From a virus, in the IMG/VR virus record IMGVR_UViG_3300008470_000394, positions 1-37,104 of that record: a stretch of 37,104 bases of DNA; one strand, written 5' to 3'. Below the pieces are notes generated by a model. The model was given only the letters and a program-made list of their open reading frames with translations, had not been told where the DNA came from and made no database searches. A program made the position numbers and the translations under genes. Of this stretch, positions 9,500 through 37,104 are shown one piece after another. Position 1 is the first letter of the stretch, and every line of letters starts with the position of its first letter.

Positions 9500-9631
9500 A
9501 TTATTTATGATTTTAACTAATTATTAAATATTGTTTAAATAACAATTTAATACGAAGTTGTTATTTAAAGTATGTAAACACATATTAAAAAATCTAAACA
9601 ATGTTATTTAACTACTATTACGTATAGCCCT

Positions 9632-9650
9632 GTGTTGTATGTAATTAAAT
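9632..9650 (+). repeat. 19-bp inverted repeat, left arm, flanking a methyltransferase gene
   Basis: The sequence GTGTTGTATGTAATTAAAT matches the reverse complement of 10335-10353 at 18 of 19 positions. The two arms enclose the methyltransferase gene almost exactly, starting 16 bases beyond its stop codon and ending at its start codon. Confidence 0.75.
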
Positions 9651-9665
9651 AAAAAGCTTCTGTGG

Positions 9666-10336
9666 TTAAAATAAGGTCAGTTGCTTTTTATAATCATTAT
9701 ACTCTTTCACTCCATTATCAAAGTAGGTTTTATCTATTTCACAAATATCTAAATCATACCCTTCTTTATCACAAGCTTTTGCAATTGTCATACTTCCTCC
9801 GTGCGTATCTATTATCTTCATACCTTTTTCAGCATATTTATTTAATATCCACCTATAAAGCATTATTGGTTTTTGTGTTGGGTGTATTCGCTTCTCTTTG
9901 TTTTTCATATCGTACTGTAACATTCCGTGCCACGTTATTTCTACGAAATCAATTTTATTTAACCAGCTCAAATAAGCAAGTTCACCTGTGCTATAAGTTG
10001 GCATTGTTACGTTCTTGTGCCAATACAACATACCACCTTGTAGGTTAAAGAAGTTTGCACCCCAAATTATTTGCTTTTTACTTACTCTTTTTAGCTCTTC
10101 AAAATATTCATCAGTAGGTGTTGAGTTATCCCAATTTGTCTTTTTATAGGTAGTAAGTTTAGCCAAACTTGTTTTTTCGTGATTTATACCGTTAAATCCG
10201 TTATTTTTTTATCTGCATCAATACCATAAGGTGGATCAACAATAGCTAAATCATAGTAGTTATCAGGTTTAGTTTTCATAAACTCAATGTTATCAATATT
10301 GTAAAAATTTATTTCGCTCATATTTATCTTTTTCAT
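9666..10336 (-). pseudogene. DNA methyltransferase (N6_N4_Mtase-like), frameshifted in a 7-A tract
   Basis: The 5' frame starts at the ATG at 10336 (or 10321) and encodes about 50 residues with a beta-class catalytic motif IVDPPYGID, stopping at 10184. The 3' frame carries the rest: GANFFNL, the IHPTQKPIMLYRWIL motif and the cofactor-site remnant IIDTHGGSMTIAKA, ending KKQLTLF. The frames join if the T7 run at 10204-10210 (seven As in the coding sense) had eight, giving a protein of about 223 residues. No restriction partner is adjacent, so a protective or regulatory orphan methyltransferase is likely. The cause may be homopolymer sequencing error, phase variation or ribosomal slippage at AAA AAA A. 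The gene lies between 19-bp inverted repeats. Confidence 0.8.
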
Positions 10337-10353
10337 TTAACTACATACAACAC
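10335..10353 (-). repeat. 19-bp inverted repeat, right arm
   Basis: This is the partner of 9632-9650, with 18 of 19 bases matching as an inverted repeat. The methyltransferase start codon (10334-10336) touches its inner edge and its outer edge merges into the palindrome at 10347-10395. Confidence 0.75.
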
Positions 10354-10395
10354 TAACTAAAACAGCATTAAAACGCTGTCTAGTTTAACCGTTGT
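10347..10395. repeat. Nested imperfect palindrome (attC-like shape)
   Basis: Paired segments from outside in are ACAAC/GTTGT (10347-10351, 10391-10395), AACTA/TAGTT (10355-10359, 10381-10385) and ACAGC/GCTGT (10362-10366, 10375-10379). Small unpaired bulges separate them. This segmented stem resembles folded integron attC sites, but the RYYYAAC/GTTRRRY core boxes are not met, so it may only be a terminator-like hairpin. Confidence 0.55.
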
Positions 10396-10401
10396 AAAAC
10401 A

Positions 10402-10635
10402 TTAAACATCACTTCTATATCCTTTGCTTTTCAATTGTTGCTTAATAGCTATAACAGCATCTTCATCATCTGGTAACGATTTTACAACAATCTGTATAGG
10501 TAAAATATGTACGAGTTCAGCTATTATTTCTTCTTTACACTCTTCATCAATATTACTCCACCAGTCATCAAATCCACCCCTACTATTAAGTACATCAATC
10601 ATTTTCGTTGCTAATTCTTCTCTGTTGTCTATCAT
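10402..10635 (-). CDS. Small acidic protein, unknown
   Basis: This is a 77-residue protein beginning MIDNREELATKMIDVLNSRGG, rich in acidic residues, with WWSNIDEECKEE in the middle and a basic C-terminus (KSKGYRSDV). It starts at an ATG after an A-rich leader and is followed by the nested palindrome at 10347-10395. I recognise no family. It sits among small accessory early genes, some of which could counter host defence; there is no direct evidence for that here. Confidence 0.55.
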   Translation of the reverse strand: MIDNREELATKMIDVLNSRGGFDDWWSNIDEECKEEIIAELVHILPIQIVVKSLPDDEDAVIAIKQQLKSKGYRSDV

Positions 10636-10699
10636 TTTTTCAGTTATTTAATCGTAAATTTTCTACCAATACAGTTAGCCATTAGCGATAACACTCTTT

Positions 10700-10999
10700 T
10701 TAGTTTCCACACATATCGCATCTTCTTAACTTCTTGCAGTTAGATATATCTTTATTTACAAAGCCACAATTCTCTATACCTAATTCAAAGTTACATATTA
10801 GGGTATCGCTAACAGGATATAAAACCAATAAAGCTTTATCTATCTGAGAGATTTCAGTCTTACGTTTAGCTATTGATTCTGAGTATTCGGGGTTATTTGC
10901 ATCTGCAAGGCTTAATTCAAGTTCTGCTCCTGCTTTTCTTCCTTTAAGTAGTTTTTTTACGTAGTCCATATTCGGCTTTACTGGGTTTATATTGGTCAT
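10700..10999 (-). CDS. Small helical protein with C-terminal cysteines, unknown
   Basis: This 99-residue protein has an N-terminal helical region (about residues 10-60). Its cysteine-bearing C-terminal half ends NCKKLRRCDMCGN, with earlier cysteines in LICNFELGIENCGF. The spacing could bind a metal, but a full zinc-ribbon pattern is not convincing. Its first residues (MTNI) recur at the start of the frameshifted gene at 11872-12143. It starts 3 bases beyond the stop of the upstream gene. The function is unknown. Confidence 0.55.
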   Translation of the reverse strand: MTNINPVKPNMDYVKKLLKGRKAGAELELSLADANNPEYSESIAKRKTEISQIDKALLVLYPVSDTLICNFELGIENCGFVNKDISNCKKLRRCDMCGN

Positions 11000-11002
11000 T
11001 AT

Positions 11003-11233
11003 CTATAATAAGGCAAGTTCTTTTTTAACCTCATACCAATATATTTCATCACCGTTGATTTCAAAATCTGGGCTACCATCATATTTAGGGAAGTTGAACG
11101 CACTTATGATCTCATCAACACAAACCAAAGCGAGTTCCTTCGCTAGTCCTGTTTTTTCTGGGGTATCCCATCCATTTATCACTGGTAGGTATTTCCACAG
11201 TAATTGCTTTGCTTTTTCTTTAGTCTGTACCAT
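11003..11233 (-). CDS. Small protein, unknown
   Basis: This is a 76-residue protein starting MVQTKEKAKQLLWKYLPV, with an amphipathic N-terminal helix and a strand-rich acidic C-terminus (DFEINGDEIYWYEVKKEL). It starts just beyond the long palindrome at 11243-11338 and is closely followed by the next gene. I recognise no domain. Confidence 0.55.
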   Translation of the reverse strand: MVQTKEKAKQLLWKYLPVINGWDTPEKTGLAKELALVCVDEIISAFNFPKYDGSPDFEINGDEIYWYEVKKELALL

Positions 11234-11242
11234 AGCTTATAA

Positions 11243-11338
11243 TAGATAACACGCTGTATAAACCATAAGCAAATACAGAGTGTTGGTTAATAATTTATTT
11301 CTTTGGTGTGCTTACGGTTAATACAGTAACGTTATCTA
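11243..11338. repeat. 96-bp imperfect palindrome (attC-like shape)
   Basis: Paired segments from outside in are TAGATAAC/GTTATCTA (8 bp), CTGTAT/ATACAG (6 bp), AACC/GGTT and TAAGCA/TGCTTA, each separated by 1-4 unpaired bases, around an AT-rich loop of about 37 bases. The stop codon of the RHH gene (ending at 11336) lies in its right arm. The segmented stem with bulges resembles attC sites or a large terminator. The exact attC core consensus is not met. Confidence 0.65.
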
Positions 11339-11473
11339 TAATTTAGGGAGGTGCTTCGTAAGCAAGGTTCTTAGTACGTGAGTCATACTTTCATCTTGCT
11401 TACCTGCTTCCTTCCTTAATCTAGCTAATAGGTTATCTGATAACCTAAAAGCTGTTTGTTTCTTGTTTGCCAT
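11336..11473 (-). CDS. Ribbon-helix-helix (CopG-like) regulator
   Basis: This is a 45-residue protein beginning MANKKQTAFRLSDNLLARL. The pattern is typical of a short RHH fold: a beta strand with alternating side chains (QTAFRL), a first helix (SDNLLARLRKEAGKQ), a short turn (DESM) and a second helix (THVLRTLLTKHL). Such proteins bind DNA as dimers, often to tandem repeats. Its ATG at 11473 shares a base with the upstream stop (TAATG). The operon promoter carries three copies of TTGTATAAC, an obvious candidate operator for autoregulation. Confidence 0.75.
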   Translation of the reverse strand: MANKKQTAFRLSDNLLARLRKEAGKQDESMTHVLRTLLTKHLPKL

Positions 11474-11694
11474 TATTTAACTATATCAAATTGATGTATG
11501 AGTGTTCCAGAGTTTTGATTTCCTTCTTTTGATTTGAACAACTCAAAAAAATCATTTGTTTCAACTGTTCCAAATCCAAATGTGATTTTGTACTCTGTTC
11601 TACCCATTTTAGCTAATCCTGTTTTCTCGTTAACTGTAACTAATCTCCCTATTAAACTTTTGTTGTTAGCTTTTAATATTTTTAAAGTTCTCAT
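11473..11694 (-). CDS. Small beta-rich protein, unknown
   Basis: This 73-residue protein begins MRTLKILKANNKSLIGRLVTV. Its strand-turn-strand pattern (SLIGRLVTVNEKTGLAKMGRTEYKITFGFG) could form a small barrel. It is the first gene behind a well-formed Bacteroidetes-type promoter (11715-11745) and is coupled to the RHH gene by TAATG. I recognise no family; a small RHH-partner or single-domain regulator is possible. Confidence 0.6.
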   Translation of the reverse strand: MRTLKILKANNKSLIGRLVTVNEKTGLAKMGRTEYKITFGFGTVETNDFFELFKSKEGNQNSGTLIHQFDIVK

Positions 11695-11708
11695 ATCTCT
11701 CGTTGTTT

Positions 11709-11755
11709 GTTATACAAATATAGCTTTCTTATTTAGTTATACAATAGTTATACAA
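11709..11755. promoter_or_regulatory. Three direct repeats of GTTATACAA (candidate operator)
   Basis: Perfect 9-base repeats lie at 11709-11717, 11736-11744 and 11747-11755, written TTGTATAAC on the transcribed strand. They overlap or flank the promoter at 11715-11745. Tandem direct repeats over a promoter are the usual target shape for RHH repressors, and an RHH gene is the second gene of this operon. Confidence 0.65.
11715..11745 (-). promoter_or_regulatory. Bacteroidetes-type promoter
   Basis: On the minus strand the -7 box is TATATTTG (11722-11715), a perfect TAnnTTTG. A 19-base spacer separates it from ATTG (11745-11742), close to the TTTG -33 element. It lies about 20 bases ahead of the start codon at 11694 and below the terminator at 11807-11841, as expected for a new transcription unit. 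Confidence 0.75.
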
Positions 11756-11806
11756 AGAAAGTTTCGTTTATATCAAAAAAAAATAGATAACAAGGTATAA
11801 AAACAA

Positions 11807-11841
11807 AAGCCTAACCAAGTGTATTACATATAGTTAGGCTT
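11807..11841 (-). terminator. Intrinsic terminator
   Basis: A hairpin with arms AAGCCTAAC (11807-11815) and GTTAGGCTT (11833-11841) is followed on the minus strand by TTTTGTTTTTA. It closes the replication-gene operon that ends at 11872. Confidence 0.85.
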
Positions 11842-11871
11842 ATTTCGTAGGCTTCAGTTTTTATACAACCG

Positions 11872-12143
11872 TTAGCAAACATTAAGTTTTCTGATTAATG
11901 TTTGCACTCGGTAGCACTCTTTTTGTTTTTCCTCTAAGTTCAGATTGTTGTCAGCAAGTACATACTCTTTGTATGTGTAAAGAGTAGCATTTACATCATC
12001 TATTAGCTCAAGATTGCTAACAAGATATAAATCTAAAAGCTCCTTAATTGCCTTCTCTTCATCAAACTCACCTTGCTTTGTGTAACTGTTTTCTAATATA
12101 TGTTTCAAGTTCTTTTCATATCTTCAAGTTTTATATTGGTCAT
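11872..12143 (-). pseudogene. Small unknown gene with an apparent 1-base frameshift
   Basis: An ATG at 12143 overlaps the upstream stop (TAATG) and reads MTNIKLEDMKRT before TGA. The frame shifted by one continues KNLKHILENSYTKQGEFDEEK to the stop at 11872. Adding one A to the run of four at 12113-12116 joins them into about 90 residues: MTNIKLEDMKKNLKHI. The alternative is a TTG start at 12108 with no coupling. The encoded protein is helical and acidic with a cysteine-containing end; its function is unknown. Confidence 0.6.
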
Positions 12144-12928
12144 TAAGAGTAAATCAGGTCTTCAACACCAACACACAGAAGCTCTGACAAATACCTTTCT
12201 AATAAATGAGATTTGTACCTCTTTATCACTTTATTATAGGCTATACTTCCTTTTACTATTAGCCCACCCTCTTTGTCTTTACCGTCTGCTTCTTTATACT
12301 CTTCATTACTAAGTTCCTTCCATTTAACACTGTCTTTGTAGTCTGGGATTTTACCCATCCTTTTCAAACAATCAAAATATCTTACACCGTGCATTAGTTC
12401 AAACCCTTTCGACTTACCATTAATGAATTTTGTGTTTAATTCCTTGAATGTATCAGTGTCCGCCTTAAGTAACAAAGCTATCTTGTCTTTCTCGGTCGTA
12501 TCCGTAAGTTCTAAGCAAGGGTTTACTGTGTTTGTGTACTTTGCTAACCTTTTAGCTCTGTAAGCCTTGTAGTGGTACAGAACAGAGCCTAAAAAGTCAG
12601 TACTGAACTTATTATAATGCTCTATCTTCTTTTCAAGCTTCATTGATGAATTTAGTTTTATAGCTTTTTCCACCTCTGAAAAAGAAACATCTGAAAACTC
12701 AACACACCAAAAGTCAATTATTGCCTGCGACTCTATATCAATCATTGGCTCAGACAACCCAATCAAGAAACCTATACCACTTATCTTTTGAAGAAGACTT
12801 ATAATCTCTTTTGGCTCATAGTTTCTTATTTTTTTAGTGTTGAAATGAAGATCTACTATTTCGTCATTGTATTTTATTTGAGTTTTAACTTCTTTTAACT
12901 TATTACTGTGTAAACTAATATCTCTCAT
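12143..12928 (-). CDS. Putative replication accessory protein, unknown
   Basis: This is a 261-residue protein, mostly helical, with no recognised motif. It overlaps the end of the DUF4373 replication gene by 14 bases and is translationally linked to the following small gene by TAATG. In phages of this type the gene directly after the DnaD-like initiator is often a helicase loader or other replication accessory protein. No Walker motif is visible, so an AAA-type loader is not supported. Role by context only. Confidence 0.5.
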   Translation of the reverse strand: MRDISLHSNKLKEVKTQIKYNDEIVDLHFNTKKIRNYEPKEIISLLQKISGIGFLIGLSEPMIDIESQAIIDFWCVEFSDVSFSEVEKAIKLNSSMKLEKKIEHYNKFSTDFLGSVLYHYKAYRAKRLAKYTNTVNPCLELTDTTEKDKIALLLKADTDTFKELNTKFINGKSKGFELMHGVRYFDCLKRMGKIPDYKDSVKWKELSNEEYKEADGKDKEGGLIVKGSIAYNKVIKRYKSHLLERYLSELLCVGVEDLIYS

Positions 12929-19424: not shown

Positions 19425-19489
19425 TTAATGCTAATGACCAGTGTAAACGCTTTTTTTATTGCGTTTTACACCGTGTTAGGCATTATTAA
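19425..19489. repeat. Imperfect palindrome / hairpin (attC-like)
   Basis: The inner arms are GTGTAAACGC (19441-19450) and GCGTTTTACAC (19461-19471) around a T-rich loop. Outer pairing AATGC-TAA with GTTAGGCATT (19475-19484) extends the stem. The GTTAGGC box fits the integron GTTRRRY core, but the left partner (GCTAATG) departs from RYYYAAC. It could also end the preceding transcript. Confidence 0.6.
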
Positions 19490-19510
19490 ATTAACAGATA
19501 AAAAAACAAG

Positions 19511-20239
19511 ATGATAGATTTATATAAAGGTGATTGTTTGGAGATAATGAAGAAAATAGAAAGTGGCTCAGTTGATGCAATAATAACAGACCCTCCATAC
19601 GGAACGACTGCTTGTAAATGGGATAGCGTTATTGATTTTGATTTAATGTGGGAACAACTAAACAGAATTATAAAACCTAATGGTGCAATTGTATTATTTG
19701 GTTCAGAACCTTTTAGTAGTGCGTTGAGAATGAGTAATATTAAAAATTACAAGTATGATTGGATATGGGAGAAGCCAAAAGGAACAGGTTTTTTAAATGC
19801 TAAAATACAGCCTTTAAGATATAGTGAATTGGTATCTGTGTTTTATAAAAAACAATGCACATACAACCCTCAAAAAACAACAGGACATAAACCATCTAAT
19901 AAATCAAGTGCTAAAAGTATCAAGGAAACTGATGTTTACGGCAAATTTAATAAACAAGAAAAAGGAGGACAGACAGATAGACACCCTAAAAATATAATAA
20001 AATTTAATAACGTTAATTCTTCAAAAGGAATAATACACCCAACACAAAAGCCAGTTGCACTAATGGAGTACCTAATTAAAACATATACCAACGAAAACGA
20101 AACTGTTTTAGATTTTACGATGGGTTACGGAAGTACTGGAGTAGCTGCAAAGAATTTAAACAGAAACTTTATAGGTATTGAGCAAGACGAAAAGTATTTT
20201 AAGATAGCTGAGAATAGAATACAAAGCACTCTCCTTTAA
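19511..20239 (+). CDS. Site-specific DNA methyltransferase (N6_N4_Mtase), first tandem copy
   Basis: This is a 242-residue amino-methyltransferase of beta-class order. The catalytic motif is TDPPYGT (DPPYG at 27-31), followed by ACKWDSV, a variable target-recognition part (about 85-175), IHPTQKPVALMEYLI, and then the cofactor site DFTMGYGSTG (201-210). The usual motif has FxGxGS; here Tyr replaces the Ser seen in the second copy (TMGSGSTG). No restriction endonuclease is adjacent, so it probably protects phage DNA or alters its expression. A near-identical C-terminal end recurs in the next gene. Confidence 0.9.
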   Translation: MIDLYKGDCLEIMKKIESGSVDAIITDPPYGTTACKWDSVIDFDLMWEQLNRIIKPNGAIVLFGSEPFSSALRMSNIKNYKYDWIWEKPKGTGFLNAKIQPLRYSELVSVFYKKQCTYNPQKTTGHKPSNKSSAKSIKETDVYGKFNKQEKGGQTDRHPKNIIKFNNVNSSKGIIHPTQKPVALMEYLIKTYTNENETVLDFTMGYGSTGVAAKNLNRNFIGIEQDEKYFKIAENRIQSTLL

Positions 20240-20252
20240 TAAACTAAATAAT

Positions 20253-21005
20253 ATGATAGATTTAAGATTAGGTGATTGCCTTGAAGTAATGAAAACAATT
20301 GAAAGCGGTTCAGTTGATGCAATAATTACAGACCCACCGTACGGAACAACAGCGTGCAAATGGGATTCAGTAATAGATTTTGAATTAATGTGGTAGCAAC
20401 TAAATAGAATTATTAAGCCTAATGGTGCAATTGTGTTATTTGGTTCAGAACCTTTTAGTAGTGCTTTAAGAATGAGTAATATTAAGAGTTACAAGTATGA
20501 TTGGATATGGGATAAAGTAACTTCTGCAAATTTTATACAATTTAAAAATGTACCCGCAAAATGTTACGAAAATGTGTGTGTTTTTTACAAAATAAAACCG
20601 ACATATAATCCTGTAATGGAATTAAAAGAAAAGAAAAATTTAAGACCAATTAGCAACAAAAAAACATCAAACAGAAAGATATTTAAAATGGCAAGCGGTG
20701 AAGAAAAAAGAGGTGTTAATTATAGTGATAAATTAAAATACCCTAGAGCTATTCAAGTTTTTAATAGAATGGCTAAAGAATGTAACACTTTAAACAGACA
20801 ACACCCAACGCAAAAACCTATTGCTTTAATGGAATACCTAATAAAAACCTATACAAATGAGAGTGAAACAGTATTAGATTTTACAATGGGAAGCGGATCA
20901 ACTGGAGTAGCTGCAAAGAATTCAAACAGAAACTTTATAGGGATAGAGCAAGACGAAAAGTATTTTAAGATAGCTGAGAATAGAATACAAAGCACTCTCC
21001 TTTAA
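20253..21005 (+). pseudogene. Second tandem DNA methyltransferase, interrupted by an in-frame TAG
   Basis: The frame starts at the ATG at 20253 with MIDLRLGDCLEVMKTIESGS and keeps DPPYGTTACKWDSVIDFELMW. A TAG at 20394-20396 (codon 48) then replaces the Glu of copy one, and the frame continues unbroken to 21005. Both catalytic and cofactor motifs are present (DPPYG; DFTMGSGSTG). The central recognition region differs strongly from copy one, while the last 60 bases are almost identical. TAG is a normal stop elsewhere here (1217, 5770, 34842), so code reassignment is unlikely. A pseudogene, a suppressor-dependent gene or a base-call error remain open. Confidence 0.8.
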
Positions 21006-21032
21006 TTATGCCTAACACATATCTATACGCCA

Positions 21033-21121
21033 TTCAAAAATTGCACACGGTTTAAACGATTTAAACAAAGATTTTTAATCAAAACTTAGAAAAACTGGTT
21101 TTTGTTCGTGTGCAATTATTG
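21033..21121. terminator. Long imperfect palindrome between convergent operons
   Basis: The arms are TTCAA-aa-ATTGCACACG (21033-21049) and CGTGTGCAAT-ta-TTGAA (21106-21121, approximate ends), around a loop of about 57 bases that also contains TTTAAAC direct repeats. It separates the rightward methyltransferase genes from the leftward end of the lysis genes. A bidirectional transcription block is likely, though the long loop and lack of a clean T run are unusual. GCCTAAC at 21010 fits the attC RYYYAAC core. Confidence 0.5.
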
Positions 21122-35105: not shown

Positions 35106-35532
35106 CTGCTATCTTTTTACAAAGCAATACCTCGCTTTCTTTTGTCAACTTGTTAATATCTTCGCCAAACTCAATATAAAGATCCGTGTTGTCTTTGATG
35201 GGGTTTGCCAAGATGTCGAAAAAAGTTTTACCTACAATAACCCTTATGGTCGAATAGAACTCTCCTGTAAAGTTCAGGTCTATAACTTGTATTTGCAAAC
35301 CTGCTTCAGACCTTATTTGTTTTGTTGTTGGTGAGTACTCACCTTGTAATCCTATATTACGTCCTTCTATAGGGCTGTTGTTACCATCTATACCCTTTGA
35401 TAGTTGGCCCTTGTTCAGCTCAACTATGAAGTCTTTTATCTCCTTAGTAGAGAATATTTCTAACATTAAGGATTCGAATTCTAGCAAGTCCTTTAACTGT
35501 TCTAATCGTTTTATGAATGGCTGAAACAACAT
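35071..35532 (-). CDS. Phage tail-region protein (head/tail assembly family), unknown role
   Basis: This is a 153-residue protein. The pattern QLSKGIDGNNSPIEGRNIGLQGEYSPTTKQIR, then LNFTGEFYSTIRVIV, recalls a family common in phages of Bacteroidetes in which a similar stretch (GVDxxGxxLGEYSPxT) is followed by a beta-rich part. It has no agreed function. Its start codon (35530-35532) lies in the 141-bp repeat, so the gene is complete here although it spans the circle junction. Confidence 0.55.
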   Translation of the reverse strand: MLFQPFIKRLEQLKDLLEFESLMLEIFSTKEIKDFIVELNKGQLSKGIDGNNSPIEGRNIGLQGEYSPTTKQIRSEAGLQIQVIDLNFTGEFYSTIRVIVGKTFFDILANPIKDNTDLYIEFGEDINKLTKESEVLLCKKIADEIKIRILQFN

Positions 35533-35572
35533 TCTTTAAAGATAACCAATATTACCATTAATTTTTAGGCAT

Positions 35573-35601
35573 AAAAAAGCCCCGACTAGCGAGGCTTTTT
35601 T
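35573..35601 (-). terminator. Intrinsic terminator, right copy
   Basis: This is the second copy of the hairpin at 58-86, inside the repeat. On the circle it is one and the same element. Confidence 0.75.
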
Positions 35602-35612
35602 ATTATTCCAAT

Positions 35613-35656
35613 TTATTCTGTCAGCTTATCAGCCTTTTTTGCTGTTTCCTTCTCTT
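35613..35656 (-). pseudogene. Truncated 3' end of the 67-residue tail-region gene
   Basis: Only the last 44 bases of the gene at 98-301 are present, ending with its TAA at 35613. The upstream part is replaced by unrelated sequence from 35657. This cut falls at the end of the exact repeat and so reflects the junction, not gene decay. Confidence 0.8.
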
Positions 35657-35922: not shown

Positions 35923-37104
35923 CTATTTTCTGTTCACTTTAATTAGTTTAACTGTTCTTACAACTGAAACACCTAATGACAAAATAATTATAATAATCAA
36001 TATAATACAAATCGGACGAGTGAAAGCAGGCAAAATACTTCCACCAAAAATTAATAAGGAGCGCCTCAATTCTTTTTCTGCCATCGGTCCTAGAATTAAA
36101 GCTAAAATAATTGGTACATAAGAAATTTTAGCTTTTTGCATAATATATCCGAGGATACCAAAAATGAACATAATTACAACATCAATAATATTATTCCTCA
36201 AAGCATATGAACCAATAACGCTCAATACAATTATACAAGGAGATAAAATAGTTGTGGGAATTTTTACTACTTGAATAAATATCTTGGCTCCTGCTAATCC
36301 AAATATACACATTGCAATATTAGACAAAAATAAAGAAAATATTAGAGTATATGTTACTACTCCATGTTTTATGAAAAGCTCCGGACCAGGAATTAGGCCA
36401 TGTATTAATAAGCCCCCTAAAAATACTGCAGAAACAGAGTTACCAGGTATCCCTAAAGTTAAAAGTGGAACCAATGAACCCCCAGTAACTGCATTATTGG
36501 CAGCCTCTGAGCCAGCAACTCCTTCAATACTTCCTTTGCCAAACTCTTCGGGATGTTTGGAATTACGTTTTGCTTCACTATAACCAATATAGGCTGCTAT
36601 ATCTGTTCCGGCTCCCGGAATTATTCCTATTATTGTTCCAATAATGGTAGAACGGATAAAGGTTAAAAATGTCCTTTTTAGATCAGACAAGGTAGGAATA
36701 ATTTTATCTTTTATTATACTCTTTTTTACCTGTATTGATGTCCGTGTAGTCTCAATAATGCTCATAGCTTGGGAAATTGATACTAATCCAATAATTACTG
36801 GTAATAATGGTAATCCATCAATTAAAGAACATTGACCCCAAGTAAATCTCAATTCACCAGATATTATATCAATCCCAGTTAAAGCTACAGCCAATCCAAA
36901 AAAACCTGAAATTAAACCTTTTAATAATGAATCACTAGAAACAATTATGATTATAGTAAGGCCAAATACAGCCAGGAAAAAACGTTCAGGTGGTCCAAAT
37001 TTCAAAGAAAGCTTTGCTAAGGCCGGTGCAATAATTAAAAGAGATAAGGCACTAAATAAGCCTCCAAAAGTTGACGAGACTGTTGATATTCCTAAAGCTC
37101 TTCC
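35923..37104 (-). CDS. tctA: Tripartite tricarboxylate transporter, large membrane subunit TctA (3' part)
   Basis: The open frame runs off the window: 393 residues of a protein of usually about 500. Frame to the edge reads GRALGISTVSSTFGG, then KFGPPERFFLAVFGLT. The TctA signature GIIPGAGTDIAAYIGYSEAKR, the segment GVAGSEAANNAVTGGSLVPLLTLGIPGN and LIPGPELF are all present, with many membrane helices. TctA is the permease of the TTT family that takes up citrate and other carboxylates with a periplasmic binding protein (TctC). It ends in TAG. No phage would be expected to carry it; it is probably from a bacterium and joined by assembly. Confidence 0.9.
   Translation of the reverse strand, partial: GRALGISTVSSTFGGLFSALSLLIIAPALAKLSLKFGPPERFFLAVFGLTIIIIVSSDSLLKGLISGFFGLAVALTGIDIISGELRFTWGQCSLIDGLPLLPVIIGLVSISQAMSIIETTRTSIQVKKSIIKDKIIPTLSDLKRTFLTFIRSTIIGTIIGIIPGAGTDIAAYIGYSEAKRNSKHPEEFGKGSIEGVAGSEAANNAVTGGSLVPLLTLGIPGNSVSAVFLGGLLIHGLIPGPELFIKHGVVTYTLIFSLFLSNIAMCIFGLAGAKIFIQVVKIPTTILSPCIIVLSVIGSYALRNNIIDVVIMFIFGILGYIMQKAKISYVPIILALILGPMAEKELRRSLLIFGGSILPAFTRPICIILIIIIILSLGVSVVRTVKLIKVNRK

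Follow-up and report, generated by a model that had tools for sequence, protein, structure and literature searches.

Inverted repeats at the edges of a phage DNA methylase gene are very probably the outer boxes of an integron-type cassette

A DNA methylase gene in a viral genome is framed by a pair of 19-nt inverted repeats, and the locus raises the question of what these repeats are. We analyzed the window, meaning the whole stretch of 37,104 nucleotides, which comes from one virus record (IMGVR_UViG_3300008470_000394). Four features make up the locus, with the arms and the hairpin named according to the reading argued below:

9666–10336, minus strand: DNA methylase gene (N6_N4_Mtase; from protein family and ORF reading), frameshifted at 10204–10210.
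9632–9650, plus strand: Arm 1, putative R' box GTTGTATGT (9634–9642) plus extension; array start in integron polarity.
10335–10353, minus strand: Arm 2, putative R'' box ACATACAAC (10343–10351 on the plus strand) plus extension; touches the start codon.
10343–10399, minus strand as in our covariance model R1 (plus in integron polarity): attC-like hairpin of the methylase cassette (covariance model and folding).

The repeats exceed chance and, as the original prediction had stated, sit at the edges of the gene. The plus strand at 9632–9650 (GTGTTGTATGTAATTAAAT) and the minus strand at 10353–10335 (GTGTTGTATGTAGTTAAAT) differ at one of 19 positions, and the pairing reaches 24 nt at 92% (9632–9655 with 10330–10353). 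Arm 2 overlaps the first possible ATG of the gene (10336–10334), and Arm 1 stops 16 nt past the stop codon (9666–9668). Inverted pairs matching at 18 of 19 positions and no more than 1.5 kb apart occurred twice in the window and in none of 40 first-order Markov shuffles. There was no further copy of the 19-mer in the window at up to three mismatches (shuffle mean, 0.03 matches). The pair was beyond chance by both types of shuffle. A window of 34% G+C might favor chance similarity in AT-rich DNA, the alternative raised at the outset, but the shuffles, together with recurrence of the arms in a second contig and across the family (see below), refute it and leave it a negligible probability.

One of the two arms is part of an attC-like hairpin. 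On the minus strand, the methylase gene is preceded by the hairpin TTTTACAACGGTTAAACTAGACAGCGTTTTAATGCTGTTTTAGTTAGTGTTGTATGT, whose right end is the arm. In homologues from unrelated contigs the stems differ while the architecture and loop are the same, and this also holds for another cassette of the window that carries methylases (19427–19483). Among 15 aligned sites, nine of 16 base pairs vary on both sides with pairing kept, and the window sites tested fold as single strands with z of about -3. Structure rather than sequence is thus conserved in hairpins of the 10343–10399 type, as it is in attC sites. A search of Rfam gave no match above a gathering score. The box GTTAGGC fits the textbook R box GTTRRRY, and GTTGTAT and GTTATCT do not; most boxes here depart from it, with T at box position 5 in 18 of 33 matched units, and we count this against an integron reading.

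We searched the window with R1, for which two window sites were among those used in building the model; the E-values come from a short calibration. The sites and units found were:

11242–11339, minus strand: attC-like site outside the model-building set (R1 E 0.0012; folding).
11783–11879, minus strand: attC-like site outside the model-building set (R1 E 2.9e-6; folding).
12013–12150, minus strand: weak attC-like site (R1 E 0.25; matching boxes GTTAGCAAT and TTTGCTAAC).
11331–11791, minus strand: cassette with ORF 11473–11694, from its matched ends GTTATCTAT and ATAGATAAC.
11003–11251, minus strand: probable cassette with ORF 11003–11233; ends GTTATCTATTATAAG and CTTATTATAGATAATG read by eye.
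19427–21016: second cassette, with two more methylases.
19427–19483, plus strand: attC-like hairpin of the second cassette (R1; folding).
19511–21005, plus strand: two tandem methylase copies within the second cassette, 85–87% identical in two blocks.
21001–21018, minus strand: outer arm of the second cassette, GTTAGGCATAATTAAA, with its box at 21016–21008; array start in integron polarity.

Within units, opposite ends agree far more often than chance would give. In the window the ends pair as GTTATCTAT with ATAGATAAC, GTTAGCAAT with TTTGCTAAC, and GTTGTATGT with ACATACAAC. At least five of six informative box positions were common to 28 of 60 neighboring site pairs, compared to 3.8% of unrelated pairs, so that units end in complementary R' and R'' boxes as those of integrons and integrase-less attC clusters (CALINs) do. 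At arm position 11, each of the 33 matched units (mostly chosen on positions 4–9, with a few added by eye) has an A on one side, and only three have it on the other. The lone mismatch of the 19-mer falls at this position and is therefore an instance of a family-wide asymmetry. Based on these results, we consider it very probable that the repeats around the methylase gene represent the outer pair of recombination boxes in an integron-type cassette.

The unit between the arms moves as a block. Compared among the window and three contigs (L003, L004, and L230), the methylase cassette was 71–93% identical between the arms, and the 200 bp outside were at background (22–36%). The original prediction had proposed searching for the arm around other genes, and an 18-mer scan of IMG/VR found it in six contigs. 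One of these (L078) is a true second instance, where the 18-mer flanks a methylase of only 45% identity on both sides; another (L075) has a nearly empty arm pair, and the other four have no paired arm. The nearly empty units, near 2649–2666 in L075 and near 470–500 in L078, have matching boxes about 30 nt apart and look like cassettes whose gene was lost. A terminase-based search for close phages found none, and phages sharing the replication gene were too divergent for an empty-site comparison. Neither an empty site nor an excision circle was seen, a point against an integron reading.

Movement as a block, with long and nearly perfect inverted repeats flanking a gene, is also what a transposon or MITE-like unit served by a transposase in trans would give. 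However, the DNA next to the arms (left, CGTATAGCCCT; right, TAACTAAAACAG) shows no target-site duplication, the arms match only within a unit and differ between cassettes, a hairpin adjoins one arm, and the units stand in tandem. These properties make a transposon quite improbable. The proposal of a mobile cassette with terminal inverted repeats therefore stands as to the cassette, given the identity profile and the second instance in L078, and falls as to the repeats, which belong to an integron-type unit with attC-like hairpins and are not transposon-type ends.

Arrays of such sites also occur in chromosomes of Bacteroidota. At E ≤ 0.001, R1 sites were present in 57 of 395 genomes from a Bacteroidota class, several of them in one-strand clusters. 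A tyrosine recombinase lay upstream of the array, co-oriented with the cassettes, in eight of the ten genomes searched for recombinases (neighborhoods were inspected in eight of the ten). Four of these (G400, G280, G059, and G215) were spotted first by coordinates. Another eight recombinase loci were then tested, which added G364, G284, G231, and G199; four recombinase loci of these genomes (L232, L235, L239, and L240) had no adjoining array. Between the recombinase and the first attC there was an exact copy of that attC's 9-nt box in all eight cases, often with a palindrome ahead of it (G284, G400, and G364).

The array recombinases differ from canonical IntI. Six have intact frames of 374–406 amino acids and two are fragments. 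The six intact proteins match XerA/integron models and score below the IntI cut-off; TIGR02249 matches array recombinases only as two pieces, under its cut-off. In the recombinase that was aligned, that of G400, about 42 residues are absent at the extra domain of IntI4 (2a3v), so that it does not have the IntI-specific additional domain near patch III, which is described as necessary for integron recombination; its absence also counts against an integron reading. Among 20 Bacteroidota genomes with sites, none had a canonical IntI above the cut-off. The array-side recombinases at L233, L234, L237, L194, L193, and L231 have an N-terminal extension and no IntI-specific domain.

The chromosomal arrays resemble sedentary chromosomal integrons in having a recombinase, a junction site, and an array whose cassettes carry attC-like sites and lie on one strand. 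They differ in that the recombinase reads along the cassettes, has no IntI-specific domain, and falls below the IntI cut-off. In the part of the literature that was covered, we found no publication on these arrays. We think it reasonably likely that Bacteroidota have an integron lineage of their own, with an XerA/integron-type recombinase that does without the IntI-specific domain, a same-direction and often palindromic junction site, and cassettes with 9- to 11-nt boxes, and that a methylase-rich phage pool, its genes backwards to the site, exists in parallel.

Class 1 integron sites have extra unpaired bases on the R'' side, an A after R'', and a C before R'. Judged by these features, integron polarity runs opposite to the R1 strand. 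The host arrays agree with the reversed polarity, running from recombinase to junction, A-type arm, gene, and hairpin. We considered whether the arm at 9632 is an array end that lost its hairpin, and ruled this out by the polarity of the stem, by arm position 11, and by the host arrays, which together make this arm the start of the phage array, with no hairpin missing. In integron polarity (plus strand) the methylase cassette spans 9634–10391 and consists of box R', the gene backwards, box R'', the hairpin, and the next box.

Gene direction was uniform within each setting. Among units with an ORF of more than 60 amino acids, genes run forward in integron polarity in 26 of 26 chromosomal units and backward in 15 of 15 phage units. 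All phage cassettes checked have the hairpin and the G/T-type arm at the 5' side of the gene and the A-type arm at the 3' side. One possibility is that the backward genes match the direction of phage transcription. The constant side of the hairpin also bears on the earlier proposal of an invertible segment, here an on/off switch for the methylase, which inverted arms at the edges of a gene would suit. There is no recombinase in the window, tyrosine recombinases included (no PF00589 match), and the related phage cassettes checked have no flipped allele and only the one orientation, so that inversion is very improbable.

With an integron-type cassette as the preferred reading, we placed the methylase unit in its array. 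The sites at 10343–10399, 11242–11339, and 11783–11879 are all on one strand and close together, with no integrase nearby, as in a CALIN. The methylase cassette is, with high probability, the end unit of such a cluster, first in integron polarity, and the cluster reaches to about 12150; the stretch 10402–10820, between two sites, is assigned to units in part. The sequence CGTATAGnnnTGT precedes both array starts in the window (9610–9633 and 21017–21035), and a common target site is possible.

The methylase frame is broken. The interruption, overlooked previously, is at a run of seven T's (10204–10210, plus strand), and the open part is only the C-terminal ORF, 10166–9666. Homologues in L003 and L004 are open across this position. 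The homopolymer frameshift may be phase variation, decay, or a sequencing error, and the copy at 9666–10336 would accordingly be inactive, switched off, or misassembled. The second tandem copy in the second cassette has a stop codon early in its frame. Because two of the three cassette methylases of this phage are interrupted, their present benefit is uncertain.

The arms are not intrinsic to the methylase gene, since most of the 191 homologous methylase genes tested have none. The protein family is identical to that of phage orphan DNA methylases, from which the present gene differs in traveling as a cassette. Phage hairpins precede genes in the direction of transcription and could thus be regulatory leaders of phage early genes, the arms being a by-product of sequence conservation at gene edges. 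Under this explanation the arms should not match inside units while differing between them, as they do; moreover, arms and hairpin are both missing from most of the homologous methylase genes, and the chromosomal copies of the site stand behind genes. We regard a leader as most unlikely.

Integron-type cassettes have been described in phages. Qi et al. (2023; PMC9892861) found CALINs in phages, including Polaribacter phage P12002L with methylase cassettes, and five of six phage attC sites tested, which are relatives of the present sites, recombined with IntI1. P12002L (L082) shares with the window the hairpin architecture, the CGTTTTAATG loop, matched cassette ends, methylase cargo, and lack of an integrase, and the window is another, distant phage genome. 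On the orientation of the P12002L sites, Qi et al. went no further than "divergent directions"; the extended boxes, the position-11 asymmetry, and the consistently backward ORFs are described here. In P12002L, a stretch of about 60 bp ending in GGTAAAACTTGTTTTATCCGTT lies before two different arrays (before 29237 and 37263) and is a candidate insertion site. Another phage contig (L228, in G403; 37 kb), which shares the replication gene with the window, carries nine attC-like sites that all lie on one strand and are interspersed with several methylase-like genes.

By analogy with known integrons, a recombinase of the host would most likely act on phage or cassette DNA that has folded as a single strand; we look to the host because the phage has no such enzyme. 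Cutting at G|TT, which at Arm 1 is expected at G9634|T9635, would move cassettes in and out. From established phage biology, the methylases would shield phage DNA from host restriction, and the phage would gain ready-made anti-restriction genes.

Integron cassettes in phages have been known since 2023, from few genomes. The present case accounts for a puzzling repeat, supplies a model for attC sites of the Bacteroidota type, and links the cassettes of phages to chromosomal arrays with a recombinase that does not have the domain described as necessary. It makes two questions testable: whether integrons function without the IntI-specific domain, and whether anti-restriction methylases circulate among phages as ready-made cassettes.

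The window also carries an exact direct repeat of 141 nt (1–141 and 35516–35656), with a host-like TctA transporter gene (35923–37005) to the right of the second copy. The repeat could mark the ends of a prophage within the chromosome of a bacterium, or it could be a joint made in assembly.
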